From positions 1-41,864 of the IMG/VR virus record IMGVR_UViG_3300038855_000035: a stretch of DNA of 41,864 bases; one strand, given 5' to 3'. Positions within the stretch are counted from its first letter, which is position 1. Every line of letters starts with the position of its first letter. Of this stretch, positions 8,463-41,583 are shown piece after piece. The DNA is from a virus. Both the position numbers and the translations under genes were made by a program. Under the pieces are notes generated by a model. That model made no database searches and was not told the DNA's origin. It saw only the letters and a list, made by a program, of their open reading frames with translations.

Positions 8463-10112
8463 TTAAGAAAGGTACTCCCACATGTAAGATTTGTCTCCAT
8501 ATTCATCTACTGTGCTCCAAGTATCTCCTTGTGCATCTACAAAAGTATCTTCATCTGAACCATCGACTAAGAAACCAAATGGTGCCATATCTTGCTCTAT
8601 TTGATTCTTGTTATCCTCATATAATCTCTTACGTACATCCTGATCAGTTAATTCTTTAAAATAATCACATTGTACTAACCATGCATAAATGACAAGACAC
8701 ATTGCCAAATCATCATTACATCCATCATCTGCTTCAAATGAATTACTCTTTGAAATGAATGTTGTTAACTCAGATATAATATCATAATCATTAAAGATTA
8801 ATTTATCTGCCTCAATTAATGTCTTAAGATTTAATGCACCAACCTTCTTAACAGTTTTGGACATCTTGACACCTAATTGTACCTTACCACCACTAAAACC
8901 CTGTCCTATAACTTGTCCAGCACGTCCTCTCATAGATGACATAAGAAGATTAGGATATTCAAAATCATAATTAAGTATGGATGCAACCTGATCACCAATA
9001 TCATTTATTTCACAAAGTACAAATGCATTGTTGTAACCTTTACATGTTTCGTATATAATATTAGGGAATAGCATAGGTCTAATTTCATTATTCCTATATT
9101 TTGCTACTATCCTATGAGGGAATGTGGTTATGTCTACAATTATAAATGCAGAATAATCCTCTCCTATACCACGAGCAACGTCAACTGTACAAACATAATC
9201 ATGTTTATCTTGTGGTGACTCAAATAAATCCAAACCCTCATTAGACATTACTGGTTTATCATAAACCAATGATTTTAATTTTGCTGGACTAATAAGGGTA
9301 TCAACAGAACCTAAGAAGTTACATTCAAATTCAACTTTAAATTGCGACTCAGAAGTGTTTGCAATAGTTTGTCTTTTCCATTCATCATCCCTACCAGGAA
9401 CTTCACTCCAATGGACTACAGTCGGTACATATTCATTATCTCCGTTCTCAGCATCGTGCCACATTCGATAGAAGTGGTTCATACCCTTGGGGGTAGAAAC
9501 GATGATAATCTTTGTTGATTTACCAGATGAAATAGTAGGATATACTGAACTAAAGAAGTCGTCAGCAATATGATTCGGAACGAATGCAAATTCGTCCAGG
9601 AATATGATATTAAAAGTCATACCCCTGACTGCAGCAGCAGATGTAGATGCTGCCATAATCTTAGAACCATTTTCTAATTCCAGACTACCTTTGTTCCATA
9701 CAAGAATACCCTGTTGCATCCACTTGGGTAAATTCTCATACGCAGTCTGAAGTCTTCCTAATAAATCTCTAGCAGTTGCTGCCTTGTTTGCAAGAATACC
9801 TATATTAACATTATCATTGAATACTGCATAGTGAAGTAGATACGATACAGACGTAGTAGACTTACCAGTCTGTCGTGGCATCATGCATATATTAAATCTA
9901 TTCTGATGAAATCTATCAATTAACTTCTCTTGGAATGGCCACATCTCAAATGGAACCAAACCTTCATCAACGTTTACAATCTTAATATAATTTCTCGCAA
10001 AATAAATTGGGTCCAGTTTACATTTAATAAACTCCTGGACTTGATCATGACTAAACTCAATTTCAGTGTTGGCTTTCTTTAGATTGGGATTGCCAAGATA
10101 TACTTCAGGCAT
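8463..10112 (-). CDS. gp17: Terminase large subunit gp17
   Basis: The product has 549 residues (T4: 610) and is the ATP-driven DNA packaging motor and headful nuclease. Seen in the sequence: Walker A MPRQTGKST at residues 78-86; Walker B IIFLDE at 169-174, followed by FAFVPN; a coupling motif VSTPKG near 205-210; and the RNase H-like nuclease beginning at CTVDVARGIGEDYS, where Asp311 is the likely first catalytic aspartate. A later ALCEIND-type strand (FVLCEINDIGDQ) and the C-terminal CNDDLAMCL supply the other acidic residues. It lies five bases after an accessory gene rather than directly after gp16 as in T4. Confidence 0.98.
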   Translation of the reverse strand: MPEVYLGNPNLKKANTEIEFSHDQVQEFIKCKLDPIYFARNYIKIVNVDEGLVPFEMWPFQEKLIDRFHQNRFNICMMPRQTGKSTTSVSYLLHYAVFNDNVNIGILANKAATARDLLGRLQTAYENLPKWMQQGILVWNKGSLELENGSKIMAASTSAAAVRGMTFNIIFLDEFAFVPNHIADDFFSSVYPTISSGKSTKIIIVSTPKGMNHFYRMWHDAENGDNEYVPTVVHWSEVPGRDDEWKRQTIANTSESQFKVEFECNFLGSVDTLISPAKLKSLVYDKPVMSNEGLDLFESPQDKHDYVCTVDVARGIGEDYSAFIIVDITTFPHRIVAKYRNNEIRPMLFPNIIYETCKGYNNAFVLCEINDIGDQVASILNYDFEYPNLLMSSMRGRAGQVIGQGFSGGKVQLGVKMSKTVKKVGALNLKTLIEADKLIFNDYDIISELTTFISKSNSFEADDGCNDDLAMCLVIYAWLVQCDYFKELTDQDVRKRLYEDNKNQIEQDMAPFGFLVDGSDEDTFVDAQGDTWSTVDEYGDKSYMWEYLS

Positions 10113-10117
10113 AATAA

Positions 10118-10531
10118 TTAAACAGTTACGTCAGCACCAGCTCCTTGATTGACTGCTTGTCTTTTCTTCAATAGAACCAGTTTCTTAATCATATTAATTC
10201 TTTTTTCAGATGCTTCTAATTTCTTTTTAGACTGCTCTTCTTTCTTTTTCTTTACAGCATCCAATGGGTCTTCATCAGGTGTTGCACCAACTTCCTGATT
10301 GATTTGTTCCTGCTCTGGTAACTTTACAATCGCAGAAGTCCTATCAATAGGATGTTCATAATATGCATTTACTTTAGCACCAGGATATATCTTTTGAATA
10401 CTATCTTGTATTTCTGCTCTAGAAGGTTTCTTTAAACCTGGGAAGAAAAATTGAATAGTATAATATCTGCCACGCCATACTAATGACACGCACATGTTAA
10501 TACCATTCTTACGTTCAATAGTATCACTCAT
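10118..10531 (-). CDS. Hypothetical protein upstream of gp17
   Basis: This 137-residue protein is of unknown function. The first half (VWRGRYYTIQFFFPGLKKPS, then an IYPGAKVNAYYE strand) looks like a small alpha/beta domain; the second half, from about residue 90, is a Lys/Glu-rich helix likely to form a coiled coil, ending in a Gly/Ala/Val tail. An internal ATG at residue 13 (MCVSLVWRG) is an alternative start. It is preceded by a GATAAATA late promoter core and ends 5 bases before gp17, so it is probably cotranscribed with the packaging motor. I recall similar proteins at this place in cyanophages but no function. Confidence 0.8.
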   Translation of the reverse strand: MSDTIERKNGINMCVSLVWRGRYYTIQFFFPGLKKPSRAEIQDSIQKIYPGAKVNAYYEHPIDRTSAIVKLPEQEQINQEVGATPDEDPLDAVKKKKEEQSKKKLEASEKRINMIKKLVLLKKRQAVNQGAGADVTV

Positions 10532-10552: not shown

Positions 10553-10681
10553 TTATTTATCTTCTTCCGTCTCTTCTGCTTGATAATAGCGCAATCTTCT
10601 CTTGAGGATGAGAACTTCTTGCTTTAAGTCAGCATTCTCTTCCTCAAGTTTTTCAATATGTTCTTCGTAGATCACATACAT
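10553..10681 (-). CDS. Micro-gene encoding a 42-residue coiled-coil peptide
   Basis: This frame was read by hand: ATG at 10679-10681 to TAA at 10553-10555. The peptide begins MYVIYEEHIEKLEEENADLK and continues with a basic LKRRLRYY stretch and an acidic tail. Hydrophobic residues spaced every three to four positions suggest a short coiled coil. It fills an otherwise empty 162-base gap between two genes on the same strand with tight spacing on each side, which supports it being real. Its last codons (Asp-Lys-stop) also spell the promoter core of the next gene. Function unknown. Confidence 0.7.
   Translation of the reverse strand: MYVIYEEHIEKLEEENADLKQEVLILKRRLRYYQAEETEEDK
10554..10561 (-). 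promoter_or_regulatory. Late promoter core inside the end of the 42-codon gene
   Basis: GATAAATA on the minus strand, overlapping the last codons of the micro-gene, 22 bases before the start of the 137-residue protein. It probably starts a transcript that includes gp17. Confidence 0.6.
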
Positions 10682-10693
10682 GTAATTATTTAA

Positions 10694-11251
10694 TCAATTA
10701 AGGTTCTCTTCAACTTCGTTACAATACTTAGAGAAATCCTGTGCCATCTGCCCACCTATTTCTGCACCTTGTTCCATGCCGAACATAGTAGCAGCACCAG
10801 CGAGCACCCAACCAACATAAGGAATAGAGGCGATACCAGAAGTACCAACAGCGGCACCGACGCTACCGCCGACAATCTTTCCTGTCTGTTTTCCTCCACC
10901 TGCCGCCTCGATACACTTGACTTGGGCGGCAGACATCTTTGACCCTGATTGATCCGATAAGTGGAAAGACCCATCCATCGTGTATTCTTGTTTGGAATGC
11001 ACTCTTGCCTTTGATAATCCCAGAAAGCCACCAGGACGTTCAACGTCCTTAGTTACCTCCATTACTTTAGGATCATTTGCTCTGTATTTGATACGATATC
11101 CATCCTTACCTGCTTCTACAGTATAAGAAGTATAATCACTAATAGGAAGATTGAGTTGTGGGAACTGATTACGATTCGCAACTAACCCAATCAAACCAAT
11201 ATGCGATAACCCTAGGATACCTCCTAGGCTAAGGCCAATCCACTTGTTCAT
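10694..11251 (-). CDS. Putative membrane protein with glycine-zipper region
   Basis: The product has 185 residues. Residues 5-24 form a hydrophobic, uncleaved-looking membrane segment. Residues 117-160 hold a Gly/Ala-rich stretch (GKIVGGSVGAAVGTSGI followed by VGWVLAGAATMFGM) resembling a glycine-zipper double membrane-spanning segment. Between them is a polar domain of about 90 residues. There are only two Cys (113 and 177). The gene starts 17 bases after the previous one within the cassette between the terminase subunits. Function unknown; envelope disturbance or lysis is a guess from context. Confidence 0.85.
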   Translation of the reverse strand: MNKWIGLSLGGILGLSHIGLIGLVANRNQFPQLNLPISDYTSYTVEAGKDGYRIKYRANDPKVMEVTKDVERPGGFLGLSKARVHSKQEYTMDGSFHLSDQSGSKMSAAQVKCIEAAGGGKQTGKIVGGSVGAAVGTSGIASIPYVGWVLAGAATMFGMEQGAEIGGQMAQDFSKYCNEVEENLN

Positions 11252-11268
11252 CCAACTCGTCCTCTATA

Positions 11269-11535
11269 TCAGAGACTGGTTTGGAGCTCAGGCGCTTGCG
11301 GCGCAGCAGGACCACCGACACCAGGAGTAGCACCAAGACTAGGCAAATCATTGGAACCAGTAGGGAGTCCACCGCCAAGTCCACCAAGTGAACCAAGAGC
11401 TGCTTCAATAGCTTGTTGCTTGATGTTATCAACGATAGAATCTCTGTTGACAAATACAAATAAGCCACTGCCAACAATGGCAAGAGATACAACGCCAGAC
11501 GCAACAGCAACGACGTTAACAATTTTCTGACACAT
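11269..11535 (-). CDS. Small single-span membrane protein
   Basis: I place the start at the ATG at 11533-11535 (88 residues, MCQKIVNVVAVASG...), five bases after the upstream stop, rather than the in-frame upstream ATG at 11604, which would overlap that gene by 65 bases. Residues 4-27 form one hydrophobic span, followed by NRDSIVDNIK, then a Gly/Pro-rich C-terminus (GGLGGGLP, GATPGVGGPAAP). The pattern fits an N-terminally anchored protein with a disordered tail. I recall similar small proteins in cyanophages beside the next gene, without known function. Confidence 0.75.
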   Translation of the reverse strand: MCQKIVNVVAVASGVVSLAIVGSGLFVFVNRDSIVDNIKQQAIEAALGSLGGLGGGLPTGSNDLPSLGATPGVGGPAAPQAPELQTSL

Positions 11536-11539
11536 TTTA

Positions 11540-12010
11540 CTATACAGTAGGTTTAACTGGTGGCTCACTATTACCGGGCTTAATAACCATAGGAGCTTGT
11601 TCAATTCTGATTACTTGAGCAGGAGCAGTTTGACTTGCTTTCTCAATTAATTTTTCCATATCTTGCTTAGATACGGTTCCAGGAGGAGTACCGTTACCAT
11701 TCATCTTCATGGTACCGTCACCTTTCTTACTCGCTGTCTGAATTCCGAAGGAAGCTAAAACTCCAGTAAAAACTGAAGCTATAAAAGTCGGATCAATTTT
11801 CTGTTGTGGTACACCTGGGATAGATACGTAATTTAATGTCAATATCCCTCCGGACCAGACAAGAACACCCAAACGTACAAATGTACTGATAATTGCTGCT
11901 TGTTCCTCTTGATCAGGAATAATGTTGTCCTTTATCTTACCGAGAACACTCTTCTTTTTCTCGTCTTTTTTCTCTTCCCCATGAAGTTCTTTTTTTACTT
12001 CATCTGGCAT
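11540..12010 (-). CDS. Putative two-span membrane protein (holin-like topology, unproven)
   Basis: The product has 156 residues. A highly charged N-terminus (residues 1-37, many Lys and Glu) precedes two hydrophobic segments at about 40-60 (AIISTFVRLGVLVWSGGILT) and 74-93, joined by a short loop SIPGVPQQKID. A polar C-terminal tail follows, rich in Pro and Gln. Two helices with charged termini resemble small holins, but this is topology only. A GATAAATA promoter core 21 bases upstream makes it the first gene of the cassette between gp16 and gp17. No catalytic residues are evident. Confidence 0.82.
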   Translation of the reverse strand: MPDEVKKELHGEEKKDEKKKSVLGKIKDNIIPDQEEQAAIISTFVRLGVLVWSGGILTLNYVSIPGVPQQKIDPTFIASVFTGVLASFGIQTASKKGDGTMKMNGNGTPPGTVSKQDMEKLIEKASQTAPAQVIRIEQAPMVIKPGNSEPPVKPTV

Positions 12011-12031: not shown

Positions 12032-12039
12032 TATTTATC
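12032..12039 (-). promoter_or_regulatory. Late promoter core heading the membrane-protein cassette
   Basis: GATAAATA on the minus strand in the 51-base gap between gp16 and the 156-residue membrane protein, 21 bases before its start. A second match, AATAAATA at 12063-12070, overlaps the gp16 stop codon and could be an alternative core. Confidence 0.65.
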
Positions 12040-12061: not shown

Positions 12062-12481
12062 TTATTTATTTTGCGCTTTAGCTGCGTCTTTTAACATTTT
12101 TGAAAGTTCATTGGTTGAACCAACAAACAATGCATTAGTTACATTCGTAGGTGTCCTTTCCTTTTCCTCCTCTACTTCTTTAAGTTTCTTTTGCAAGTCC
12201 ATTAACTTGTCAGTTGCGTCTGATACGGACTTGACGAGTTGTCCAGCAACTTCGTATGCTCTTGGCATTTCACTCTCCTGAGCAAGTTCAAGAATTCCAT
12301 TAATTGCTTCTTGTCCTTTTTCAATGATAGAGTATAAATTGCCTCTTGTGTATTCGTAGTCATTTCTGATATCCGTCTTATCCCTGTCTACAGGGGGTTT
12401 TTGGATACCAACCTTCTTAGTGTCAGCAACAATTTCTGCTGCTACATCAAATGTTTCTTCCAGTGAGGTGAAATCTGCCAT
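12062..12481 (-). CDS. gp16: Terminase small subunit gp16
   Basis: The product has 139 residues (T4: 164). In the family it forms rings that recognise DNA and stimulate the gp17 ATPase. Blocks matching T4 gp16 from memory are DIRNDYEYTRGNLYSIIEKG (T4 has EDDYGVVRRNMH), SEMPRAYEVAGQLV (T4 NADSPRHMEVFATLM) and NALFVGSTNELSKML near the C-terminus (T4 NATVFMGSPTELM). The centre, about residues 85-110, is a charged coiled coil. It starts two bases after the gp15 stop, as in the T4 gene order. Confidence 0.93.
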   Translation of the reverse strand: MADFTSLEETFDVAAEIVADTKKVGIQKPPVDRDKTDIRNDYEYTRGNLYSIIEKGQEAINGILELAQESEMPRAYEVAGQLVKSVSDATDKLMDLQKKLKEVEEEKERTPTNVTNALFVGSTNELSKMLKDAAKAQNK

Positions 12482-13556: not shown

Positions 13557-13889
13557 CTATCTACTATTTAGATTCTCAGACCCGCCTATATTATAGGTAA
13601 CGTCAGAATCGCAATTTTCTGAACCACCTAAAGAAAATGGATTATATCTAGCAGTTGCAATTTTATACATTTTCTCATGTATAGTTTCCTCTTTTTTAGG
13701 TTTCTCATCAGTAAACCAATCTAAATCTGCAAATTCAGAAGGTTTATAATCATCAGGAGGTTCGTATTCTGATGGCGCAGTATCTTCCCAACTGGGAGAT
13801 TCTTTCGCCACAGGCATAGAATCTAAGGGATTTGGTGGGAACCAATCCTCATCTCCATCAGGATCATAATAACCATATTGACTTTCCAT
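13557..13889 (-). CDS. Hypothetical acidic Pro/Asp-rich protein
   Basis: The product has 110 residues. The N-terminal 70 are rich in Asp, Glu, Pro, Tyr and Trp (GYYDPDGDEDWFPPNPLDSM) and look disordered. The C-terminus contains a duplicated motif: GGSENCDSD and GGSENLNSR. The start codon follows the gp14 stop without a gap. Position between the two neck and tail-completion genes implies a late role, perhaps as a small neck or assembly component. I do not recognise a family. Confidence 0.78.
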   Translation of the reverse strand: MESQYGYYDPDGDEDWFPPNPLDSMPVAKESPSWEDTAPSEYEPPDDYKPSEFADLDWFTDEKPKKEETIHEKMYKIATARYNPFSLGGSENCDSDVTYNIGGSENLNSR

Positions 13890-25974: not shown

Positions 25975-25981
25975 TATTTAG
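25975..25981 (-). promoter_or_regulatory. Late promoter core upstream of gp8
   Basis: CTAAATA on the minus strand; its TAA is the stop codon of the gp7 gene, and it lies 17 bases before the gp8 start. Confidence 0.65.
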
Positions 25982-28900
25982 TAAGAACGTTTGATGTTTC
26001 TCAATCTTCTAATTACAGGTGCTGTAGATAACCCTGTAATACCATTACTAGTCACTACACTAAATGCATGAGGGTCACTATCTCTAGTAACTCCAGTTAA
26101 TTTACCAAAACTATAATTACCAAAGTAGTTATTCATCAATGGAGTTGCAAACCCTTCTGATGAAGAAACACTAACTGTAACTCTTTGTACTCCAGTTGTA
26201 CCAATACCAATTACAACACTTTCACCATATTCAACTGCCTGACAGCGATATATGTTATCTAAATGAGTAGTACCAACACCAACTGCACTTGTACCATTAA
26301 CATCTTCATAGGATGTTACTCCAGCACCAACACTAGTATTGTGTAAGTAGAAGAAATCACCAGCTGTTATCTGAGAAAGAGTAATAGCAGTACCAACACG
26401 TGCTGCATTTCTCATAACCATATCAGTGAACAAATCAAGTACAAGTCCTGTTTTAGCAGTACCAACGGTTGTAGCAGCAACACCAGCAATAATACCAAAG
26501 TCACCTGTAAGTACTGGAGTACCAAGAGTATCAGCAACTCCAGTTGGTTCTCCAAGAAGAACCATTGGTATTGATGTATTAGTATAACCAGTACCTGCAT
26601 TAGTAATAGTCATTCCAGTAATTGTTCCAGCAGCACTAACTGTTGCAGTAGCAGCAGCACCAATTATTACACCTGAATAAGTACTAATAGAAACAGTAGG
26701 AGCAGCAGTATAACCAAGTCCTGATGCAGTCAAATCAAGACTAATTGTTCCTGTATCAGAAACAATAGCAGTTGCTGCAGCAGAAACTTTATCTGCATTC
26801 TCATCATTAATAACTAAATTTAAAGAACTACCACTATAATTTTCCTGCTTATCATTAAACAAAGGACGAATACTTTGGACAAAAATAGTAGTTGAACCAA
26901 TACCTACATTCTGAATAATACGAGTTACTGGAGTAATAGCAGATTCATTAATGATTCTACCTTTACCAACATAAACACCATCAACAACAATATCGTCTCT
27001 TTGTTTAGTCCAAGTTATAGGACGTTCAAATGCAGTATCAGTCGTAATTCCAGGTCCAAAATACTGAACTGTCTTAAAAGTATCAGCAGTTTGGATACCA
27101 CTAACAATACGACCTGTTTGTTCTAAACCAAATGTAGATGATCTAGTAGCCTCATCACGTAATCTAACAATATCACCTTTCTTAATAGTTTCAATAGTAT
27201 CAACAAATACAGAGTCTATTGCCGAACCTTTAAAATAATATGCTTTTAAGATATCACCTTCTTTAGGTGCTTCAAGAAAATCAATAACACTACCACCCCT
27301 AAATTTATAAGAAACTCCGGGGTCTTGTAAAATATCATTAATAAAGATAATTAAGTTATCTTGAATTCTAATTGGAGAACCTTTTGCAGATATAAGTGAA
27401 ACAGGAACACCATCTTTAGTAATAGTAAAGGACTTAGTAACACCATTAAAGAATGAACTAAAGTTATCCAGAACTTCCAACTTTCCAAATGTCCAACCAG
27501 TAAACTTATCATCATGTACGGATTCAACAATAATTTGGAAATCCTTGAAATTAGCAGGAGTTCCAGTTGTTGGTATTCCAGCAAAGTTCGCTGTATTAGC
27601 AGGAACAGTTAATACATCACCAACATCATAATTACGTCCAGTATTATTAAGAGTAAATTGTGTTACACTATTACCCAATCCTACTGTAATATCAACTGTT
27701 GCATTAACTCCAGTTGTAGTAGAACCACCTGCAGCAACTAAAGGAATATTCTCATATCCTGTAGGAGCATCAATCCAAACTTTAGGTGGATTTGTAAATG
27801 TAAATCCAGTACCAGGAGAAGTTACATTAATACTTGTAATGTATCCCGAATCAACAATAGCAGTACCAATAGCAGTTCTATTTGGATATCCAGCAGCACC
27901 AGAAGTACCAACTCCTACGTATACTGTCTGAATACCAATTCTATAACCACTACCACTATTTGCAATGGATACAGATGAAACTGTACCAGCAGCAGAAATA
28001 ACAGCAGTACCACCAGCAGCAACAAGTGGTTGATATCCCATTCCCTCAGAAGAACCAACATTAACAAGAACTCCACCTCTAGGAAGCGTACCGACGTTTA
28101 GATCCGCTGCTACAGAAGAACCAGTACCAGTAAAGGCTATTTTAGTTGTTGTACCACCAGCACCAACACTAATACTATAATCAACACCTGGTCCCTGGAA
28201 TATTTCATTTAGAAGAACTATACCATTATTAGTGGAGAAACCAGTAATATTGGATTCGTCTTGAGTTATTGTGAATGTTTTAGCAATACCAGTAAAATCT
28301 TTCGAGAGTGAATCAAAGAGATAGTTATTTTCATAAGCAACACTATCATCTGATTCAGCACTTCTAACAAATACTCTTCCTTGGAAAGTAGAACGTGTTG
28401 ATAATCCAGCATAACCTTCTTCACCATATGGAGGTTCAACAAAGTTAATTGCATTATCAATAATAGTGTAATTTCCACTATATTTGGTTACAACTGCACC
28501 AGAAGTATGAATTCCTTTATCACTACCTAACCATCCTCTATCAACAAGTAATTGATCTGCAAGTTGATAACCGGTTGATTTAACCCTCATAAATTCTTCA
28601 TCAATCTTAATTAAATCACTAGCGACCATAGAACCAATACCAGTTATCTGACAATTAATTTGATTAGCACTCATAGTACTTGTTAAACCAACAGTAACAC
28701 CAGTAGATACAATAGGTGACTGAATATTGTTATCTAAAGCAACTAATGCCTTAGTATTTTGCTTATCTTGTGTGAAGGAATGTGATGCACCAGCACCAAC
28801 GGTAGTAAAATCTAAAACAGTTGCAGGTGTTGCTAAAGCATCAGAAGCAGTAGGTGCAAGTTTAATTAAATCTTCACTAACCTTTACAGCATAAACTGTC

Positions 28901-31900
28901 GAAGGAATTGTACCACCACTTGTCTGTATACCAGTACCATCATACTTATAAGTGAGTTTCTCACCAGTAACCATGAAATGGTCTGCAAATTGTATGGTAT
29001 TAGCGTTTTTATCAACAACTGTTGTATCGGTATCAGGAGACCAGAATTTATAGAAGATTGGTCTATTTCTATGAGTAAGATCAAAACTACGTTTGACAAC
29101 AGATAAAGTACCGGTATAATTACCTTCACCATTACGTAATTGTCCAATTCCATTTATTCCTATAGGAATTGTATTAATACCAACCTCAGTTCTTTGATCT
29201 TCTACTGCTTGTCCAAATACTCTAACCTTAGTTGCAATATTAGCATTAGGAGTATAATAGAGACAGAATTCACTACCAGAGAATCCAGCACCAACTGTCC
29301 CTAGTCCAACATCCATAGTTGAATTACCATCATCGTATGACAGTATTTCTCCATAATGTGTTTCATACATTTGAGTTACTGAACCATCAGTTGCCTGTAT
29401 TGTAAGTACTTCTTGTAAAGCAGATTTACTATTAGTAGTATCTTCTATAGAAACTATCCAATAAGCACCCTCATACTCAGTGCTAGTAAATCCACAAATC
29501 TTATTCTCACCAGGAGTTCCAGAAGCAGTGATTGATGTATAGAAAGAACCCATCAGTGATTCTACCATTGAAGTAGTACCAACACCAGTGACACCCTTAT
29601 TAAGTTGATAATCAATAACTTTAACACCACAGTTGGTAGTAATACCAGAACTAGGATAAAAATTCAGATTAGTTAATCCTGATGTCTGTACACCAAAGGT
29701 TCCAATAAAACCACCAGTTGCTAAAGGTGCATAATCAACAAATCCTGTAGACGCATTATTAGATCCAGGTATAACGTTAACTTCAGTTAACATATGAGTG
29801 CTTATACCATGAGCATCTGCTGTAACTTCTACTATAAGCTTGTTGGCAGCAGAATTAGAAGCCTTTGCTTGCCAAATTGTAGTTCCACCACCAATAGCAG
29901 TTGTAGTTGTAAATCCACTTATTGTAACCAGATCACCTACACTAGTCGAACCAGTTCCTGTAATAGCTCCTGTTCCAATACCTGGCATTTTATTGAAATC
30001 AACAGAAATGAAATCAATAACATAATTGTTTAATTCATACTTAGTTGGATAGAAGTTAAAGTTGGCATATGCTCCACTAAACACATAATCAAAAGTACCT
30101 AGTTGTCCTTGACTATCAACACTATATTGATTGAGATATGCATAAGTTCCGTCTGTAATAACATTTACAAAACCACACTGATTTTCTCCATTATAACGAG
30201 TGTCTTTTATATTATAGAAATAACGATGACTAGTAAACTTGTCCTTAGTTATAGAATCAAACTTCTGGAATGGATCAGTTCTAGGTACACTGTGAAAATC
30301 ATCACCAATATCATCAATTGAGAGAACTCTGTTAGTTCTTGCTTCTTCATAATTGGTAAGAATTCTATTTTCTAAAACAATCTGTTTAGATACTGTTATT
30401 TGGTTTTCAGTGCTAACACCTGCAACTTCAACAGTTAATTCACTTGCATTATCATAATCTAAAAGAGTATCTACATCAGTAACAGATATCAAATCAACTT
30501 TAACAGAAACTTCTTGACCACTAGCAGCATTTGCAGCAGCAGCGCCAATACCAGCATTAGGGAACCCAATACCTCCAGTTCCATATGATCCATCACCTTG
30601 TTCATCAGCGTCCTTAGGTCTTCCTTCAAAAGACTCAAGTTCCATATCAGAGAACTTCTTAAATCCACTAGTATGAACAATCTCACTAACTACATCTTTC
30701 CAACTAGAATATTGAATAGGAGACTTAATTGAATATGCAAATGCTTGATAATAGTCATTATCATGAATTCTTTGTCTAGAATCATTTAAGAATCCAGTTA
30801 CCTCATGGAATCCCTTTTTCTGTTCTACAAGAGGTCCAACATCAAATGTAGAGTCAAATCTTTCAATAGATTGAATAAATCCAACTTGATTAGATGAATC
30901 ACCCTCAATTTCTTTGCCAGATTCAAATACATCACTCGTAGCAATTCTAAGAGTATTGTTATTCCTATTCCATCCAACTACAGTACCAGTTTTTGTACCT
31001 GTAAGTGTTTTTTGAGTAATTTTCTCTTTAATACTAAAATCACCTTTTCTAGTTACTGGAATAAATCCAGGGAAATGTTTCTCCGGTACAACCCGTCCAG
31101 AAGACGCATCTGGGTTAAATTCACCAGGATTATCATTTTCTAGGATAAAAGTAACCTTTGGATTAGCACCACCAAGATTAGGTGTTACAGAATTAAGTGT
31201 AAAAAGGTTGTAATTGTATTCACTGGAATTATATCCAAATCCAGTAGTAGCAATACCAACACCCTCAACTAAAACCTTATCTCCAACTGCAAATGGGAAA
31301 TCCATTCCTGTAGAAAAATCAGTATCAAGAGTAAGTTCAACAGTTGCAGTAGAAGTTGTAAATCCAATAGTTTCAATACCAACTCCGTTGGAGTTGTGAA
31401 TAGGTATTATAGTTGGGTATGGGTCTTGTAATCTCTTAGTATTATTAACGATATTAACACTAGAAACACCAACAGAACCACTAACTTCTGTCTTAACTTC
31501 CACTTCGGTAATAATCTGATCACTTACCCTATCTTTAACAATTACTTTTGGTGGAGTGGAATAATTATGCCCACCAGAACTTAATCCAATATGATCTAAT
31601 GATCTATATCTATCAACCTTAAAGAGACTTGGTAATGCTCCAGTTGGACGTAACGTTTGATCGTATGGGAATTCAAAACCAGGATTATCAATTTGAGTTG
31701 ATTTAACCTGTCCAATTGAATTGCTTTCTACTCTTAATACACAACCATCCCCATAAGTAGTCGCAGCAGTACCAATATATGATCTACGTATTGTAGAAAT
31801 ACCAGGTATTGTATGATATCCAAAACCCCTATTTGTTACTTTAATATCTGCTATTCCACCTAAAGCACCAGCAGAAGTTGTCTCATATGAAATATCACTT

Positions 31901-34900
31901 AATACATCCGTATATACAGAACTCTCTGGTTCATTAGGAACATTAAATGTAAATGTTGTTGAACCCATTGAAGAAATTTTAAATTCCCCATCATAAAGAG
32001 AATCAACTAATTTAATAGTATTATAATTTTTAACTTTTTTGTCAGTAATAATCTCAGATTGAACTGTAGTAATTCTATCTGGATTAACTGGTTTCAAAGA
32101 GTAATAAAGAAACTCTGGAGTTCTAGCATTTGTTTGTAAAAATACTCTTCCTCCTGTTATACCTACATTTCCACTACTAGTAACATCAAATTGATCAGGA
32201 GTTGCAGTTAAATACTCATGTTTAAAATCCTTATCTCTAAAGAACTTAACAGAGAACGCAGAATAAGTTGTACCACCAGATACATTAGAAAGTGAACTAT
32301 CAGCAACATTAAATTCTAATTTTTGCCCTCTAGTTAAATTAATAAGTGGGTTAACTGGAAGTAAAGAGTGTAATACTGCTCCACCAGTGGATGCTAATGA
32401 TATATGCTCAGGATATTGAATTGTTGCATTATAATAATTTGATGCTAATTTAATAGTATCAGAATTGTCTTTAATAACATAATAAGTACCACTAGTAGTT
32501 AAACCAGACACTACGCTAGTTGATTCGTATATAACTTGATCACCAGTATTAAATCCATGATTAACAATACTAATTGTATCATTAGTAGTACTTACATTAC
32601 TTTGTAAGAACGTTGCTAAACCTACTGTTACTTTTCTATTATAATTACTGTACTTAATATTGTAAGAAGATGTAATTCCAGGTAATACATCTAAAAATAC
32701 AGTATCACCAACCCCAAGTCCATGTGCAGTAGTTGCTGTTGCTGTAACAACTACTTTCTCCAAAATACCAGTAAGTTGAGTATCTGTAGTTGTTAATGAA
32801 TGTGTTACACCAGCACCAACATTATGGAAATAAAGTTGTATAGCAGCAGTAGAAGCAACACCAACATATGTTCCTTCAGAACCAACTCCAACTGGCATTG
32901 TTGTTAAACCAATTAAATTTTGTCCTAATTTAATTGAATAAACTTGAGTAGGAAGGTTAAAATTGCTAATACCATTAGTAGATACTGAAACAACAGTTCC
33001 ACCACCAGAAGAATAAGTTAATGATTGTCCAGTTGTAAATTTATGATTTGGTAGATATATCGATCTATATGGAATAGCAATATCAGTAGATGCTAAACCA
33101 GGTGCTGTAATTGATATAGTACTATTAATACCAACTCCAGAAGTAGTACCAACTCCAACAACTTCAGAAGGATCAAAATATGTACTCTTCTGTATTTTAA
33201 TATCAGAATCTGTATTTACACCAACGTTAATAGTTAAACCACGTGGTTTTTCTTCAATAATAGTTCCAGCAGTATATGCTGTACCAACAGTTCCACCATA
33301 TTCTCTTATAACCCTAACTCTTGAATTAAATGTATCTACATTTATAACAAACAATTGTTCAGTTGATATTCCAATAACATCATCTACATTAAGAACTCCC
33401 ACATCTCCATTAATTGGAATATATGTAACTATACCTGTAGCAGAGGTATTCCCAATAGCAGTAGCAACTTTAAACAATGCTGTAGTAACACCAATATTAT
33501 AAACACCATCTAAGTTAATAATTGACTGTGATGATATTCCAGAAACACTTACATAATCACCATTTTTAAAATCATGTGGTTGTTGAGTTCTAGCAAGAAC
33601 TGATTTTTTGTCTTGTAATATTTCAAATGTAACATCTTCTTTTTTAATAATAGAAGATGCTATTTTAACAATATTCTTACCTGCAACTTTTGTAACTTTC
33701 GAAGATGCATTAACTCCACCACTACCCGAATTATCAAATACAACCCTATCACCAACTTTATAATTATATCCACCATCTTCAATGAATACAGATTCTATTC
33801 TACCAGGTTCAGCATAAACAACTGAAGCAAACTCATCAATCGTCTTATCAGGACGTGAAACATATTCATAATCACTAGCAGTGAAAGATAACTTATATGG
33901 ATAGATGTTTCTTACATAACCACCCTTATCTAAATCAATTTTATCAGTAATTGAATCTGGACTGAAGTTAAAAGAATCTGGTTTAGATTTAAATGATTCT
34001 CCAATTACGTATGGGAATACGGGTGTAAAATACTTGTCAAATGTTTGGTCTTGCTGAGAAGAATTATCAATGGTAGCAAAGTATGCATATGTACCCTCAG
34101 GATAGTCAGGAGTCTTACAGAAACGCCCGTTATACTTGTCTAAGTCACCTTTATTAGTAAATGTATAATCATTGGTAAATGAACCCAATGGCCAGTCACC
34201 AACGCTAGGTCCAAGTTGTCTAGTAGCATTAAGTTCATATCCAGGAATCAATCTCCTGATTACGCCACCATCTATTCTATCAAATCCATAGGGACCATAA
34301 ATTGGGTTTCCGTCATAAGCAAATCCAATAATTGGAGAATGGTTATCTGAAACTTCCTCAGCATTCTCATATTCCAAATCATAAGTACCATAATCCTTTT
34401 CACCATTTAATTTCAATGATGGGAGCATTTCTCTTAATTTTCTAGGAGCATATAGGTGTGTAAACTGCGAACCATAGTCAGCAGTACTATTCTCCATAAA
34501 TCCATCATCAAGTTTAATTTTTGTACGGAAACGATTAACATTATCAAGTTCCCATCTCTTGATTCTAGGATCAACTACAGGTGCTCTACCACCAGCGTTT
34601 AAAGCGGTTTCTATGCTTAAGAAAGACCTATCGGTAACAAATCCAACACCACCACTTACAACGTTAACAGAAGTCACTACACCGTCTGTTATAACGGGTG
34701 TTAGAGCTGCATATGTACCAATACCAGATGTAATGATTTCGGGAGGTGCATTATATCCAGAACCACCTCTAGTAACGATAACTTGCTCAATTGAACCATC
34801 TTTTACGATTGGACGAAGTTCAGCACCAGAACCAGAGAGAAAATCAATATTTGGTGGACGATTATAACTTATAATTGAAGAGTTACCATATCCTGTTCCA

Positions 34901-37900
34901 TTTTGAGTCAAATCAACGGAAGTTATTGATCCTCTAACAACAGGAATCATTGTGGCATGATAATCACCCAATGCAGTGTTAATTCCAATTTCTCCACTAA
35001 TAGAAACTGAAATTGGTTGATAATTGAAAATATGAGTACCTACACCAACACTTGTTAGATTTACATAGATGTCATTATCATAATCAGATGTTAATGTGCC
35101 ACCAACTCCAGCATTTGCTAATCTGAAGTTATTATTGTCAACAACAAGTACTTTATATTGATTATTTGCATTTAAACCACCAATAACACTACCAGTAGAA
35201 GAATATGTTAAAATTTCGCCATTTTCATATCCATGATTCTTAATATTGATAGAATGGTTAGAAGTACTAATTCCAGTAGTGATAACAGTACGTTTTTTGT
35301 TCTCATATCCACTTCCAGGGTTAGTTACAAATATACGATCAACAACATTCTTCTTTTTAACACTTTCAAACTTCTGAGTACCTGATCCTTTATCAGAAAG
35401 GTCTATTGTGCTAATTCCAGCAATAGCATCTTCAAAATTAGAGTGTAATCGGATATTTGTGTTATCAACAAGTCCAACAAAATAAATTGCACCATCACCT
35501 AAGCTTGTTGTTCCTGTTCCAACTGCTCCACCCTTATTTTGACGATAAAATACTCTTTCTCCATTATTAAAGAGGTGATAAGTTGTAAATCCAACAGTAT
35601 TAGTAGAAGTATTGATACCAACAGAAACGTCAAGTGTAGGAGCATGAATTCCTTGCCTCATTTTTGCTTCTGCAGTCGCTCCTTTACCATTACCACCAGA
35701 AATCTTAATTTGTGGTTGTTCTAAGTAATCAAAACCAGGATATGTTATATCAATTCTTTCAAATGAACCCTTTACATTGACATGCCCAGTTGCACCAACC
35801 CCTGCAGCGTCTGTAATCAACAATTCAGGTGGATTTATAACATCATGTCCACTTCCACCCTCTGTAACAAGAATTTCGTCTAATGGACCATAATAGATAC
35901 CATCTCTTGACTTATAATTTGCTAATTCTACTCCATTTACAAAAATACCAGTTTTTTCACCAGGTGTTGTTGTAAAATCTTTTCCAGGAGAATCAAAAAC
36001 TGGTTTAGTAAGTCTTCTTACCAGTCTTTGTGAATCAATTGCCTTATTTTGCAGTCTACTAGCAAATGTATGAGTTGTAATACCAGCACTATTACCAGTT
36101 ACAGTAATAAACTTACCTACATCAATGTTTGCACGAGAATATGCTAATTTAAAGGATTGATCATCGATTTTTTGAGCATAATAAGTACCTTCTGTAAGAG
36201 GACTAAGTGGAAGTGTTGTAGTAGAAGTAGAAACAACACCATCAACTAAAGTAGAAGTCTGAGTTGTTCCTGGAACATAATAAACTTCATCTCCAGTCTT
36301 AAAGTCATGAGTTCTTGAAGTAGAAATAGTATCTCCAGCAAAAGTTGCTGCAAATTTTATATCTATACCTCTTAAATCAGCATTAAGTTGCTGATTTATA
36401 TAATATGGGATAGAAGGAGATGTAATATAAGTTTGATGTTCAGATTCACCTTCAATGAAATCATGTGGAACCTCTGTATGCTTTGGCCCAACCATTTTCA
36501 TACCATTATGAGTATGATATGGACCAGCATATGGAACACCACTAACTATTCCAACAACATTTAAATCATATGCATTCTGAACATTTGCACTAAATTTATA
36601 AGTTGGTTGTTTAACAGCAGGAAGAATTTCTGCTCTAATAAGTTCTTTTCTTGCTTTATATGTTACGCCAAGGTCAATAGCACCTAATCCACTAAGAATG
36701 GCAATCTTATTTGAAGGAATGTCAATAACATTACCTTGAGTTAGTGATTGGGTTGATTGGTTAATTAATGATACTATATCACCAAGAAATAGTAAGTGTA
36801 CTTCTGGACAAGTAATCTTAATGTTACCATTACCTATATCCTCAATTTTGTCAATATTAAATCTATTTGTAACATTATAAACCCATTCAGTAAATGTCTT
36901 ATCTTTATCTTTTAAAGTACCTAAATTTTGTACATCAATAGAATCACCAGCAACCATCTGTTTACTGAGTCCTGGTATCATAAAATCAGAAACTACACCA
37001 GTAATTCTAACAGTAATTTTATTACCATCATTATCATATCCATAAACACTGGATTCTAATCTAATTAATGAATTTTTAGTAATAGCAGCAGTATTACCAG
37101 ATAATCCTAAAAATTGATTTGTAGTTTTACTTGTATAAGTAACAGTATATTCTGCTTCATCAACAGTTATTATTAAAGTACCTGAAGGTGGAAATCCAAT
37201 TGTAGAATCAACATATAATGTATTAACACTAGCAATTTCATCAGTTACGGTTCTAGTTGTGGGAGTAACACTAAACTTACCGTAGATAGAACCAGATTCA
37301 CTAATATCTTTATCAGAACCAGCGTCTAAACTTATTTGATAATAAGTGTTACCGCTACGATTATATGAAATTATATCAGCAATTGAACCATAAGAATAGT
37401 TCAAAACACCATCTACTTTATCTTGATATAAAGTTTGTCCTTTAAGACTATAAGGATCACCATCTAAAGAAACAACTACTAAATCTTCTGTTATTCTATA
37501 GTCAGCATCAGAAGGTTTAATTGTTTGTTCAAATGGTTTTACAATGACAGCTTTAGAACCATATAAAGCACGGAAAAGAATCTCAAAAGAATCATCAGTT
37601 CCTTTTGTTACATATAAATCCTTTGCTTGCTTTGAGAAAAGAGACTGGTCCAATCCAGAAACAAAAGATCTATCTTCTAATCCAGGAACATATAAACTCT
37701 TATACTTTCTAAAAAATTCTATTAAGAAAAGATTACTTAAGTTTGTTACTACAGCATCATCAGCATGAGAAGCAGAAGATGAAGTACTAAATGTTACCTT
37801 ATCTTCTTCTGTACTAGTGAAGAGAGAAGTAATTGCACTAAAACCACGCTTGCAATTAAAAAACTGTCTCTTATCCTTATTTTCATATGTAATTATTTCA

Positions 37901-38202
37901 CTACCAATTTTTAAATATCCATATCTATCGGGAAATCCCTGAGTAGAGTTAACTGCAATTGTTTTATCAAATGCATCAACAGCTCCATCTAAATTCGTAG
38001 AAGTTACAAGATTTTTCTGACGAAATGAATCATTCTTAATATATTGATCTATATTTTCAGCAATATCAACAGGACCACCTTGGAATTCCTGTGATTTATA
38101 ATACTGCTCTAAAAATTCTCCAAATAATGGAGATTCACTTCTAATCTGTTCCGGTATCTGTTGACTTACAACAGAGTAGGTTTTAGCTCTTGTTTCTATC
38201 AT
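25978..38202 (-). CDS. gp7: Giant gp7-like baseplate wedge protein (4074 residues)
   Basis: The gene occupies 12.2 kb as one open frame in the gp7 position between gp6 and gp8. By-eye comparison with remembered T4 gp7 (1032 residues) finds two matching blocks. Block A, near residues 195-265: KDLYVTKGTDDSFEILFRAL followed by YGSKAVIV and LKGQTLYQ (T4 YDFYSTKGIEASYKFLFKVL, LVGQTIY). Block B, near residue 2480: DYYQAFAYSIKSPIQYSSWK followed by DVVSEIVHTSGF (T4 RSYYVMKIKSNLPSSRWKSD, VIRFVHPVGF). In T4 the blocks are about 100 residues apart; here about 2,200. The intervening and C-terminal parts contain about 15 GxGY repeats, about seven TGDxVxY modules, a YHYH-type domain near 1270-1410 and two FTIT/GP-GV modules. 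The start overlaps the gp6 stop (TAATG). gp7 anchors the wedge in T4; the added mass is probably exposed on the virion. Confidence 0.88.
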   Translation of the reverse strand: MIETRAKTYSVVSQQIPEQIRSESPLFGEFLEQYYKSQEFQGGPVDIAENIDQYIKNDSFRQKNLVTSTNLDGAVDAFDKTIAVNSTQGFPDRYGYLKIGSEIITYENKDKRQFFNCKRGFSAITSLFTSTEEDKVTFSTSSSASHADDAVVTNLSNLFLIEFFRKYKSLYVPGLEDRSFVSGLDQSLFSKQAKDLYVTKGTDDSFEILFRALYGSKAVIVKPFEQTIKPSDADYRITEDLVVVSLDGDPYSLKGQTLYQDKVDGVLNYSYGSIADIISYNRSGNTYYQISLDAGSDKDISESGSIYGKFSVTPTTRTVTDEIASVNTLYVDSTIGFPPSGTLIITVDEAEYTVTYTSKTTNQFLGLSGNTAAITKNSLIRLESSVYGYDNDGNKITVRITGVVSDFMIPGLSKQMVAGDSIDVQNLGTLKDKDKTFTEWVYNVTNRFNIDKIEDIGNGNIKITCPEVHLLFLGDIVSLINQSTQSLTQGNVIDIPSNKIAILSGLGAIDLGVTYKARKELIRAEILPAVKQPTYKFSANVQNAYDLNVVGIVSGVPYAGPYHTHNGMKMVGPKHTEVPHDFIEGESEHQTYITSPSIPYYINQQLNADLRGIDIKFAATFAGDTISTSRTHDFKTGDEVYYVPGTTQTSTLVDGVVSTSTTTLPLSPLTEGTYYAQKIDDQSFKLAYSRANIDVGKFITVTGNSAGITTHTFASRLQNKAIDSQRLVRRLTKPVFDSPGKDFTTTPGEKTGIFVNGVELANYKSRDGIYYGPLDEILVTEGGSGHDVINPPELLITDAAGVGATGHVNVKGSFERIDITYPGFDYLEQPQIKISGGNGKGATAEAKMRQGIHAPTLDVSVGINTSTNTVGFTTYHLFNNGERVFYRQNKGGAVGTGTTSLGDGAIYFVGLVDNTNIRLHSNFEDAIAGISTIDLSDKGSGTQKFESVKKKNVVDRIFVTNPGSGYENKKRTVITTGISTSNHSINIKNHGYENGEILTYSSTGSVIGGLNANNQYKVLVVDNNNFRLANAGVGGTLTSDYDNDIYVNLTSVGVGTHIFNYQPISVSISGEIGINTALGDYHATMIPVVRGSITSVDLTQNGTGYGNSSIISYNRPPNIDFLSGSGAELRPIVKDGSIEQVIVTRGGSGYNAPPEIITSGIGTYAALTPVITDGVVTSVNVVSGGVGFVTDRSFLSIETALNAGGRAPVVDPRIKRWELDNVNRFRTKIKLDDGFMENSTADYGSQFTHLYAPRKLREMLPSLKLNGEKDYGTYDLEYENAEEVSDNHSPIIGFAYDGNPIYGPYGFDRIDGGVIRRLIPGYELNATRQLGPSVGDWPLGSFTNDYTFTNKGDLDKYNGRFCKTPDYPEGTYAYFATIDNSSQQDQTFDKYFTPVFPYVIGESFKSKPDSFNFSPDSITDKIDLDKGGYVRNIYPYKLSFTASDYEYVSRPDKTIDEFASVVYAEPGRIESVFIEDGGYNYKVGDRVVFDNSGSGGVNASSKVTKVAGKNIVKIASSIIKKEDVTFEILQDKKSVLARTQQPHDFKNGDYVSVSGISSQSIINLDGVYNIGVTTALFKVATAIGNTSATGIVTYIPINGDVGVLNVDDVIGISTEQLFVINVDTFNSRVRVIREYGGTVGTAYTAGTIIEEKPRGLTINVGVNTDSDIKIQKSTYFDPSEVVGVGTTSGVGINSTISITAPGLASTDIAIPYRSIYLPNHKFTTGQSLTYSSGGGTVVSVSTNGISNFNLPTQVYSIKLGQNLIGLTTMPVGVGSEGTYVGVASTAAIQLYFHNVGAGVTHSLTTTDTQLTGILEKVVVTATATTAHGLGVGDTVFLDVLPGITSSYNIKYSNYNRKVTVGLATFLQSNVSTTNDTISIVNHGFNTGDQVIYESTSVVSGLTTSGTYYVIKDNSDTIKLASNYYNATIQYPEHISLASTGGAVLHSLLPVNPLINLTRGQKLEFNVADSSLSNVSGGTTYSAFSVKFFRDKDFKHEYLTATPDQFDVTSSGNVGITGGRVFLQTNARTPEFLYYSLKPVNPDRITTVQSEIITDKKVKNYNTIKLVDSLYDGEFKISSMGSTTFTFNVPNEPESSVYTDVLSDISYETTSAGALGGIADIKVTNRGFGYHTIPGISTIRRSYIGTAATTYGDGCVLRVESNSIGQVKSTQIDNPGFEFPYDQTLRPTGALPSLFKVDRYRSLDHIGLSSGGHNYSTPPKVIVKDRVSDQIITEVEVKTEVSGSVGVSSVNIVNNTKRLQDPYPTIIPIHNSNGVGIETIGFTTSTATVELTLDTDFSTGMDFPFAVGDKVLVEGVGIATTGFGYNSSEYNYNLFTLNSVTPNLGGANPKVTFILENDNPGEFNPDASSGRVVPEKHFPGFIPVTRKGDFSIKEKITQKTLTGTKTGTVVGWNRNNNTLRIATSDVFESGKEIEGDSSNQVGFIQSIERFDSTFDVGPLVEQKKGFHEVTGFLNDSRQRIHDNDYYQAFAYSIKSPIQYSSWKDVVSEIVHTSGFKKFSDMELESFEGRPKDADEQGDGSYGTGGIGFPNAGIGAAAANAASGQEVSVKVDLISVTDVDTLLDYDNASELTVEVAGVSTENQITVSKQIVLENRILTNYEEARTNRVLSIDDIGDDFHSVPRTDPFQKFDSITKDKFTSHRYFYNIKDTRYNGENQCGFVNVITDGTYAYLNQYSVDSQGQLGTFDYVFSGAYANFNFYPTKYELNNYVIDFISVDFNKMPGIGTGAITGTGSTSVGDLVTISGFTTTTAIGGGTTIWQAKASNSAANKLIVEVTADAHGISTHMLTEVNVIPGSNNASTGFVDYAPLATGGFIGTFGVQTSGLTNLNFYPSSGITTNCGVKVIDYQLNKGVTGVGTTSMVESLMGSFYTSITASGTPGENKICGFTSTEYEGAYWIVSIEDTTNSKSALQEVLTIQATDGSVTQMYETHYGEILSYDDGNSTMDVGLGTVGAGFSGSEFCLYYTPNANIATKVRVFGQAVEDQRTEVGINTIPIGINGIGQLRNGEGNYTGTLSVVKRSFDLTHRNRPIFYKFWSPDTDTTVVDKNANTIQFADHFMVTGEKLTYKYDGTGIQTSGGTIPSTVYAVKVSEDLIKLAPTASDALATPATVLDFTTVGAGASHSFTQDKQNTKALVALDNNIQSPIVSTGVTVGLTSTMSANQINCQITGIGSMVASDLIKIDEEFMRVKSTGYQLADQLLVDRGWLGSDKGIHTSGAVVTKYSGNYTIIDNAINFVEPPYGEEGYAGLSTRSTFQGRVFVRSAESDDSVAYENNYLFDSLSKDFTGIAKTFTITQDESNITGFSTNNGIVLLNEIFQGPGVDYSISVGAGGTTTKIAFTGTGSSVAADLNVGTLPRGGVLVNVGSSEGMGYQPLVAAGGTAVISAAGTVSSVSIANSGSGYRIGIQTVYVGVGTSGAAGYPNRTAIGTAIVDSGYITSINVTSPGTGFTFTNPPKVWIDAPTGYENIPLVAAGGSTTTGVNATVDITVGLGNSVTQFTLNNTGRNYDVGDVLTVPANTANFAGIPTTGTPANFKDFQIIVESVHDDKFTGWTFGKLEVLDNFSSFFNGVTKSFTITKDGVPVSLISAKGSPIRIQDNLIIFINDILQDPGVSYKFRGGSVIDFLEAPKEGDILKAYYFKGSAIDSVFVDTIETIKKGDIVRLRDEATRSSTFGLEQTGRIVSGIQTADTFKTVQYFGPGITTDTAFERPITWTKQRDDIVVDGVYVGKGRIINESAITPVTRIIQNVGIGSTTIFVQSIRPLFNDKQENYSGSSLNLVINDENADKVSAAATAIVSDTGTISLDLTASGLGYTAAPTVSISTYSGVIIGAAATATVSAAGTITGMTITNAGTGYTNTSIPMVLLGEPTGVADTLGTPVLTGDFGIIAGVAATTVGTAKTGLVLDLFTDMVMRNAARVGTAITLSQITAGDFFYLHNTSVGAGVTSYEDVNGTSAVGVGTTHLDNIYRCQAVEYGESVVIGIGTTGVQRVTVSVSSSEGFATPLMNNYFGNYSFGKLTGVTRDSDPHAFSVVTSNGITGLSTAPVIRRLRNIKRSY
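26590..27990 (-). repeat. GxGY repeats in the C-terminal part of gp7
   Basis: Five copies are seen in translation: IANSGSGYRIGIQTV (near 27985), VTSPGTGFTFTNPPKV (27835), LNNTGRNYDVGDVL (27655), LTASGLGYTAAPTVSI (26740) and ITNAGTGYTNTSIPMV (26620). They are degenerate at the DNA level. Confidence 0.8.
31580..31870 (-). repeat. Three GxGY-type repeats in the middle of gp7
   Basis: VTNRGFGYHTIPGIST (near 31850), IDNPGFEFPYDQTLRP (31705) and LSSGGHNYSTPPKVIV (31590) follow one another with spacing of 40 to 50 residues. Confidence 0.7.
33975..34400 (-). other. YHYH-type domain within gp7
   Basis: Within gp7 (residues about 1270-1410) the segment SPIIGFAYDGNPIYGPYGFD and, about 80 residues later, NGRFCKTPDYPEGTYAYF match the two hallmark blocks I remember for the YHYH domain (PF14240), known from marine bacterial secreted proteins and cyanophage structural proteins. 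Biochemical function is not known. Confidence 0.7.
34670..36320 (-). repeat. Alternating GxGY and TGDxVxY protein modules in the N-terminal third of gp7
   Basis: In translation, TGDxVxY-type modules lie near 36055-36315, 35365-35590 and 35015-35250. They alternate with GxGY repeats near 35885, 35745, 35340, 34920, 34785 and 34675. The copies are diverged, and no long exact DNA repeat is apparent. Confidence 0.75.
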
Positions 38203-40950: not shown

Positions 40951-41583
40951 TTAACTATAAGAAAATAAAAATTCATTCACAAGTCGTTCCGATTTTTGCT
41001 TTCCAAACTTATTAGAAAGATACCCACCAACAGGATCAAGTTTAATCATATATGAATCAAAATCTTTATAAACACTAGTATCCATACCAGTAGGTTGCTT
41101 AAACTCTAACATATCAGCATAAATTTTCAAATACTTTTCAAACATATCAAGATGTTGATCAACCTCATCCATAGTACAATATGCTATGTAAATATTTTCA
41201 GAAAAGTGATTACCTGGTTCAAAAAACCTAACATCACCCTTACCTTTTGGCAATCCCTCTACACCAAATAAAAAATTCTCTGTTGGATGTTGAAAATCAA
41301 ATACTACAATAACTTTCTTATCAAAGAATCCCATGAGATCCATACCAAAACAGGGAAGATTACTTCCAGTCTTAGGATAGATGATGTTGTTGTAAATACA
41401 AGATTTTTCATTGTAAATTTCTACCTCTCTTGATTTAATAAAATATGGATGATTATACAATTCAGCAACAAGAGTAGTATCTTGGCTCTTCCAATAACCC
41501 CATCTTAACACCTTGTGCATTTCAGGAAAGGTTTTATTAAGAATTGCTTTATAACTTGACCAAAGATCCATTTCTGTACTCAC
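40951..41583 (-). CDS. pebS: Ferredoxin-dependent bilin reductase, phycoerythrobilin synthase (PebS) family
   Basis: The product has 210 residues from a GTG at 41581-41583; an ATG 12 bases downstream (MDLWSS) is an equally plausible start. It is strongly similar by eye to remembered P-SSM2 PebS (233 residues): IYPKTGSNLPCFGMDLM (PebS LYPKTGADLPCFGMDLM), KKVIVVFDFQHP, EPGNHFSENI, DEVDQHLD, and the C-terminus NEFLFSYS. PebS reduces biliverdin IX-alpha by four electrons, taken from ferredoxin, to phycoerythrobilin. Both family catalytic aspartates appear present: Asp82 in CFGMD (PebS Asp105) and Asp183 in KLDPVGGY (PebS Asp206). The related phage enzyme PcyX makes the same product and cannot be excluded. 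It starts inside the end of the preceding gene and sits just upstream of the baseplate genes; no heme oxygenase gene is in the window. Confidence 0.92.
   Translation of the reverse strand: MSTEMDLWSSYKAILNKTFPEMHKVLRWGYWKSQDTTLVAELYNHPYFIKSREVEIYNEKSCIYNNIIYPKTGSNLPCFGMDLMGFFDKKVIVVFDFQHPTENFLFGVEGLPKGKGDVRFFEPGNHFSENIYIAYCTMDEVDQHLDMFEKYLKIYADMLEFKQPTGMDTSVYKDFDSYMIKLDPVGGYLSNKFGKQKSERLVNEFLFSYS

Follow-up and report, generated by a model that had tools for sequence, protein, structure and literature searches.

The DNA investigated in this study, referred to as the window, is one virus record of 41,864 bases and represents a late-gene segment of a T4-like cyanophage, lying mostly on the minus strand. 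Its gene content comprises baseplate proteins, gp13, gp14, gp15, gp16, a block of open reading frames (ORFs), gp17, gp18, the prohead protease and the scaffold. A gene for a 4,074-aa protein with a YHYH domain (25978-38202, minus strand) adjoins the gp6 and gp8 baseplate genes, and a ferredoxin-dependent bilin reductase gene (PF05996, E 3e-15; 40951-41583, minus strand) was also noticed beside baseplate genes. Between the terminase small subunit gp16 (12062-12481, minus strand; PF11053/phrog_445) and the terminase large subunit gp17 (8463-10112, minus strand; PF03237/PF17289), the gap is filled by five minus-strand ORFs of 156, 88, 185, 42 and 137 aa, with intergenic distances from gp16 through to gp17 of 51, 4, 17, 12, 21 and 5 nt. 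The first (11540-12010) encodes a T4-GC 218 protein of the DUF6450 family (PF20048, E 1.5e-34; phrog_2714, E 6.8e-58) with two hydropathy spans (residues 39-57 and 72-90); the second (11269-11535, ATG at 11535) a T4-GC 414 protein (phrog_33185, E 3.2e-24; phrog_568, E 4.1e-18) with one span (residues 11-29) and a Gly/Pro tail; and the third (10694-11251) a T4-GC 219 protein (phrog_605, E 4e-64) with a single N-terminal span and a glycine-rich hydrophobic stretch. The fourth (10553-10681) is an acidic coiled-coil ORF of 42 aa that accompanies the cassette at gp16-gp17, and the fifth (10118-10531) encodes a soluble 137-aa protein with a phrog_1742/10346-like N-terminus, which is linked to gp17 in many cyanophages; neither of these two showed a membrane span by hydropathy. 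The number, lengths and coordinates of these ORFs agree with a preliminary description of the locus, and so do the spans which it had predicted for the first three proteins. Pairwise dN/dS against related metagenomic loci was 0.15-0.18 for the 156-aa, 0.48-0.64 for the 88-aa, 0.19-0.44 for the 185-aa, 0.05-0.33 for the 42-aa and 0.23-0.84 for the 137-aa ORF, and all five are under purifying selection, which is weak for the 88-aa gene.

The cyanophage/T4 late-promoter motif GATAAATA stands 29 nt before the 156-aa gene (12032-12039, minus strand) and again 30 nt before the 137-aa gene (10554-10561, minus strand), while a second copy of the motif upstream of the block, AATAAATA, occupies 12063-12070 on the same strand. 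With gaps of 4-51 nt, the tight packing behind a late promoter that had been described beforehand was found as stated. A late motif, NATAAATA, has been reported for S-PM2 (PMC2984593), and we observed it at -36 to -22 before GC218 in 10 of 84 loci (12%) and before GC414 in 13 of 68 (19%), against a background of about 1%; none of 42 replication-gene starts had it upstream. The exact late motif is present in the window and in a minority of its relatives and is absent from most cassette loci, and the literature on cyanophage transcript timing and holins yielded no gene-level timing for the cassette genes.

Judged by profile matches and gene order, the first three genes are the known cyanophage cassette T4-GC 218-414-219, all three being present on the same strand and in the same order as in cultured phages. 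This order is found in Syn1, P-SSM4 and S-SM1, near regA or rusA, and in P-SSM7, likewise near regA or rusA, a gene annotated GC713 stands where 414 is expected. It has been reported that GC218, 219, 234, 235 and 237, often together with a plasmid-stability gene, cluster in 15 of 16 cyanophages, S-PM2 being the exception, and that the cluster varies in position and is perhaps mobile, with no function given (Sullivan et al. 2010, PMC3037559). The window matches this cluster in GC218, GC414 and GC219 but differs from it in that the trio lies at gp16-gp17, has no GC234-237 adjacent to it, and is followed by the 42- and 137-aa ORFs. Since the cluster is reported as variable, the missing GC234, GC235 and GC237 limit only the extent of the unit. 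Relatives of DUF6450 were disclosed in 443 phage records and those of GC219 in 365, nearly all of them named Synechococcus or Prochlorococcus phages, cyanophages or marine viruses, and DUF6450 was single-copy in 24 of the 26 records checked. Ten further DUF6450 matches came from assemblies assigned to bacteria or archaea, for the most part metagenome bins or single-cell assemblies; these are probably phage contigs rather than sequences of cellular origin.

The DUF6450 proteins are uniform in their membrane topology and variable in length. Exactly two spans were predicted by hydropathy in all 105 members, whose lengths range from 58 to 165 aa, and their lysine and arginine residues average 3.4 before, 1.1 between and 3.5 after the spans. 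Because basic residues are thus enriched outside the hairpin, the topology is predicted to be N-in/C-in, and the window copy is a holin candidate. In the T7-like cyanophage S-RIP1, a DUF6450 gene of only 58 aa has the tail fibre gene on one side and that of the terminase small subunit on the other, the genome position that the holin gene 17.5 occupies in T7; in P-GSP1 and NATL1A-7 the gene is flanked by large unnamed genes and by the DNA maturase. DUF6450 resembles the class II holins, to which T7 gp17.5 belongs, in its two spans, predicted N-in/C-in topology, charged ends and, in the window and a minority of relatives, a late motif, but no holin family match was detected in Pfam or PHROGs among the members scanned. 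Class II holins measure 65-95 aa (PMC12843271), a range exceeded by the window protein with its 156 aa. We therefore did not assign DUF6450 to class II proper, as the window member is too large and has no holin-family sequence match. Among cyanophages, PaV-LD ORF124 (PMC9096620) and MaMV-DC ORF70 (PMC12843271) are, like the cassette candidates, membrane proteins tested or proposed for lysis; these, however, come from freshwater phages, and MaMV-DC ORF70 has a single span where DUF6450 has two. Two AlphaFold2 models were obtained, both of low confidence (mean pLDDT 54 for GC219 and 59 for the other). A viral structure search with the low-confidence GC218 model gave two matches (E 1e-5 and 4e-4), a PDB structure search with the low-confidence GC219 model gave nothing at E < 1, and profile searches against PDB sequences gave nothing meaningful.

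The two partner proteins are also predicted to be membrane proteins. The alignment of GC219 shows an invariant His17 in the N-terminal span, and its low-confidence model adds a predicted four-strand beta domain and a C-terminal glycine-zipper helical hairpin bounded by the invariant Cys113 and Cys177; a disulfide between these cysteines, if formed, would put that part of GC219 outside the cytoplasm. GC219 was considered as an i-spanin and rejected, for it has the span but, in the low-confidence model, a beta domain and glycine zipper in place of a coiled coil. A classical spanin reading of the cassette was likewise rejected, as no lipobox of a two-component spanin was found in GC218, 414, 219, 235, 236 or 237, and marine cyanophages have been listed as spanin-less (PMC6139136). 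GC414 is a single-span protein whose Gly/Pro tail varies. Its gene is overlapped in the +1 frame by a hydrophobic, Leu-rich ORF (11229-11522, minus strand) that stays open throughout the ten members of the gp16-gp17 group to which the window belongs; within this group GC414 shows little synonymous divergence (dS 0.11-0.37) compared with GC218 (dS 0.6-1.2). Overprinting of GC414 is possible, but the relatedness of the sequences, their codon composition and the ribosome site of GC219 confound this reading.

Many phages carry GC234 after the cassette, and also GC235-237, encoded on the opposite strand. Nearly all GC236 and GC237 proteins start with a signal-like segment, and in GC235 an apparent one lies behind a long upstream extension. 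Taken with GC218, GC414 and GC219, these genes give the picture of an envelope module, for which lysis is the most economical role. Such a module might instead remodel the envelope or exclude superinfecting phages, the cassette and the secreted GC235, GC236 and GC237 altering the host surface so as to block other phages or to aid release without a lesion. The signal-like N-termini and the joint travel of GC235-237 with the cassette in many phages are consistent with this, but no match to GC234, GC235, GC236 or GC237 was found among the ORFs of the 41.8-kb window, the late motifs speak against an early exclusion function, and the hydrolase neighbours described below favour lysis. We regard this explanation as unlikely.

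No peptidoglycan hydrolase and no Pfam lysis domain was found among the 19 window proteins scanned, a set comprising all but the smallest ORFs and a few others, which is consistent with the remark in the preliminary description that the window holds no visible lysis gene. Elsewhere, 22 of 105 DUF6450 loci have a same-strand peptidoglycan hydrolase no more than 4 kb away, the enzymes belonging to three unrelated families: a C39 endolysin (phrog_10051) starts 36-45 nt downstream of DUF6450 in several loci, a GH24 phage lysozyme lies about 2-4 kb downstream in some of the hydrolase-linked loci, and Phage_lysozyme2 (PF18013), most members of which begin with a hydrophobic segment, lies upstream in others. 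In the complete genomes of S-SM2 and S-SKS1, lysozyme2 is about 1.7 kb from DUF6450, and in many cultured phages (S-RIM2, S-RIM8, S-CAM22, ACG-2014d) it is about 30 kb away; among the complete genomes searched, PF18013 gave no match in P-HM1, P-SSM2, P-SSM4, P-SSM7 and S-SM1, the last of which has a different cell-wall hydrolase far from DUF6450. A Fisher combination for hydrolase proximity gave p = 0.008, an unreliable value as it rests on eight records chosen for convenience that exclude S-RIM2, S-RIM8, S-CAM22 and ACG-2014d. In most lysozyme2-linked loci, a secreted, metallopeptidase-like phrog_591 protein with an HEGWHAAQ motif is encoded between GC414 and DUF6450 (for example L016:6806-7495 and the GC945 gene of S-SM2, L118:7466-8218), some copies having a lipobox-like N-terminus. 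The window also encodes, between gp14 and gp15, a 110-aa acidic protein with GGSEN repeats (13557-13889, minus strand) that resembles GC943, a gene which directly follows lysozyme2 in S-SM2 and a cell-wall hydrolase in S-SM1.

A further line of evidence comes from the genomic slot after nrdB and rusA. Syn1 has the order nrdB-x-rusA-218-414-219, S-PM2, which is without DUF6450, has nrdB-rusA-C39-GH24 lysozyme, followed further on by an RlpA-like transglycosylase, and S-CREM2 has nrdB-x-x-rusA-C39-GH19 endolysin. The rusA genes of S-PM2 and S-CREM2 are homologous to that of Syn1 (84% and 62% identity), and their C39 genes are homologous to each other. S-PM2 appears, from its sequence, to hold a lysis cluster after rusA. 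In that phage, the 'putative lysin' S-PM2p157 (L117:6783-7001) represents the C-terminal portion of a GH24 lysozyme whose full-length frame had not been called, p160 (L117:7722-8084) is an RlpA-like lytic transglycosylase and p161 (L117:8115-8513) resembles a small lipoprotein. The S-PM2 genes share the slot of the Syn1 cassette but encode enzymes, not membrane proteins; the equivalence is positional and not homologous. Mutual exclusion is not strict, as DUF6450 and C39 co-occur in some lineages or contigs. The virion proteins encoded near the endolysins of S-CREM2 were considered and found unrelated to the cassette. S-CREM2 also has, near its neck genes and just upstream of a gp13-like gene, a small two-span ORF with LLWSMGFLSASYLG (L130:1460-1771); this sub-threshold DUF6450 match is possibly a divergent member, so that among the phages checked only S-PM2 is cleanly without DUF6450.

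Hydrolases are not the only recurrent neighbours, for 21 of the 105 DUF6450 loci have petE within 4.5 kb, which makes it as frequent a neighbour as the hydrolases. The cassette could be a module of photosynthetic or energy membranes, whose proteins alter the plasma or thylakoid membrane or electron flow in the course of infection without lysing the cell. That the hosts are cyanobacteria, and that 218-219 is followed in S-SM2 by petE, ferredoxin and PTOX, would suit such a role; the cassette, however, occurs both with and without petE-type genes, its proteins match no redox or pigment-binding family, and the cyanopodoviral copies of DUF6450 have tail and terminase genes around them and no petE annotated nearby. 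We consider this explanation quite unlikely.

The position of the cassette between the terminase genes has to be read against its distribution. The gp16-gp17 interval is a hot-spot for variable genes in cyanomyoviruses (Millard et al. 2009, cited in PMC3037559), and we found it to hold other genes in P-HM1, P-SSM2, S-SKS1, Sf-FS3 and Sf-CH5. The window uses the same insertion site, but its content is a mobile cassette, whereas P-SSM2, Sf-CH5 and S-SKS1 have virion-type or hypothetical genes there. In a context survey of 105 IMG/VR and cultured loci, many of them related or duplicate contigs, the cassette was observed at gp16-gp17, downstream of regA, of nrdB or rusA, or of a 2OG oxygenase, and beside GC237, petE or lysozymes, in the orders 218-414-219, 414-218-219 and 218-219-414. 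On the DUF6450 tree, which has few columns and limited resolution, accounting for the gp16-gp17 placement takes four changes, of which well-supported branches force two or more, and by this reconstruction the cassette arrived at gp16-gp17 more than once. Homology and synteny show the window block to be a relocated copy of the cassette in the gp16-gp17 hot-spot; the finding brings together two things already described, the cassette and the insertion site. The 42- and 137-aa ORFs belong to this site and not to the membrane cassette; relatives of the 137-aa protein occur in 49 phage records, where several of the genes neighbour gp17 and some bear a virion or structural annotation.

Comparison across cyanophages therefore bears out the conservation of the trio, relatives of which occur in hundreds of records, and not that of its position: most often they lie elsewhere in the genome, and at least four other genomic contexts were observed. 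The coupling to packaging that the preliminary description had thought possible was rejected on these grounds, with unrelated genes filling the gap in other cyanophages: as the position is not conserved, the positional argument for such a link is removed, and the cassette's place between the terminase genes is incidental. For the related idea that the proteins are packaging or virion accessories, either membrane-anchored partners of terminase or minor virion proteins, one may cite the gp16-gp17 location shared by the window and related contigs and the virion annotations of neighbouring genes of this interval in other phages, but the cassette lies near regA, nrdB, rusA or petE elsewhere and in the records examined its families carry hypothetical-protein and not virion annotations, so that we hold it to be improbable. 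Finally, a toxin-antitoxin or plasmid-stability element conferring mobility on the cassette is highly improbable, for although GC414 is annotated 'plasmid stability' and it has been suggested that such a gene might confer mobility (PMC3037559), in the window that name comes from the PHROG label, the protein matching no Pfam family and consisting of one span and a Gly/Pro tail, and there is no recombinase within the cassette.

With moderate confidence, we suggest that the most likely job of the cassette is the inner-membrane part of host lysis, in which it would work like a holin. This reading is supported by the two-span topology, the T7-holin position, the hydrolase neighbours, the slot equivalence with S-PM2 and S-CREM2, and the late motif. 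Of the holin, spanin-like or envelope-modifying unit proposed in the preliminary description, the holin-like and envelope-modifying parts are thus plausible and the spanin-like part, in its classical sense, is not. Counted against lysis are the missing holin-family match, the missing window hydrolase, the separations of about 30 kb in many cultured phages, the equal nearness of petE, the rarity of the exact motif, the length of 156 aa, which is large for a class II holin, and the occasional presence of DUF6450 and C39 together. In the mechanism we propose, DUF6450 would accumulate late as a two-span N-in/C-in protein and open or depolarise the cytoplasmic membrane in the manner of small holins, and the lesion would let a phage peptidoglycan hydrolase, encoded elsewhere in the genome, reach or act on the wall. 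GC414, with its one span, and GC219, with its span, probably periplasmic domain and Cys-flanked glycine-zipper hairpin, may tune or extend the lesion, while the 42- and 137-aa ORFs would be neighbours at the insertion site, outside the lysis unit.

More tentatively, and with somewhat greater doubt than for the lysis role itself, DUF6450 could represent an undescribed holin family common to T4-like and T7-like marine cyanophages, forming with GC414 and GC219, and in many phages GC234-237, a mobile, cyanophage-specific lysis module that has no classical spanins and is served by interchangeable peptidoglycan hydrolases. To our knowledge, the genes for the host-burst step in these marine cyanophages are not known, and as the cassette genes occur in nearly all cyanophages checked, they provide a concrete set for testing. 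If the cassette is holin-like, a large set of 'hypothetical' cyanophage genes would become interpretable; if it is not, a membrane module widespread among cyanophages still awaits a role.
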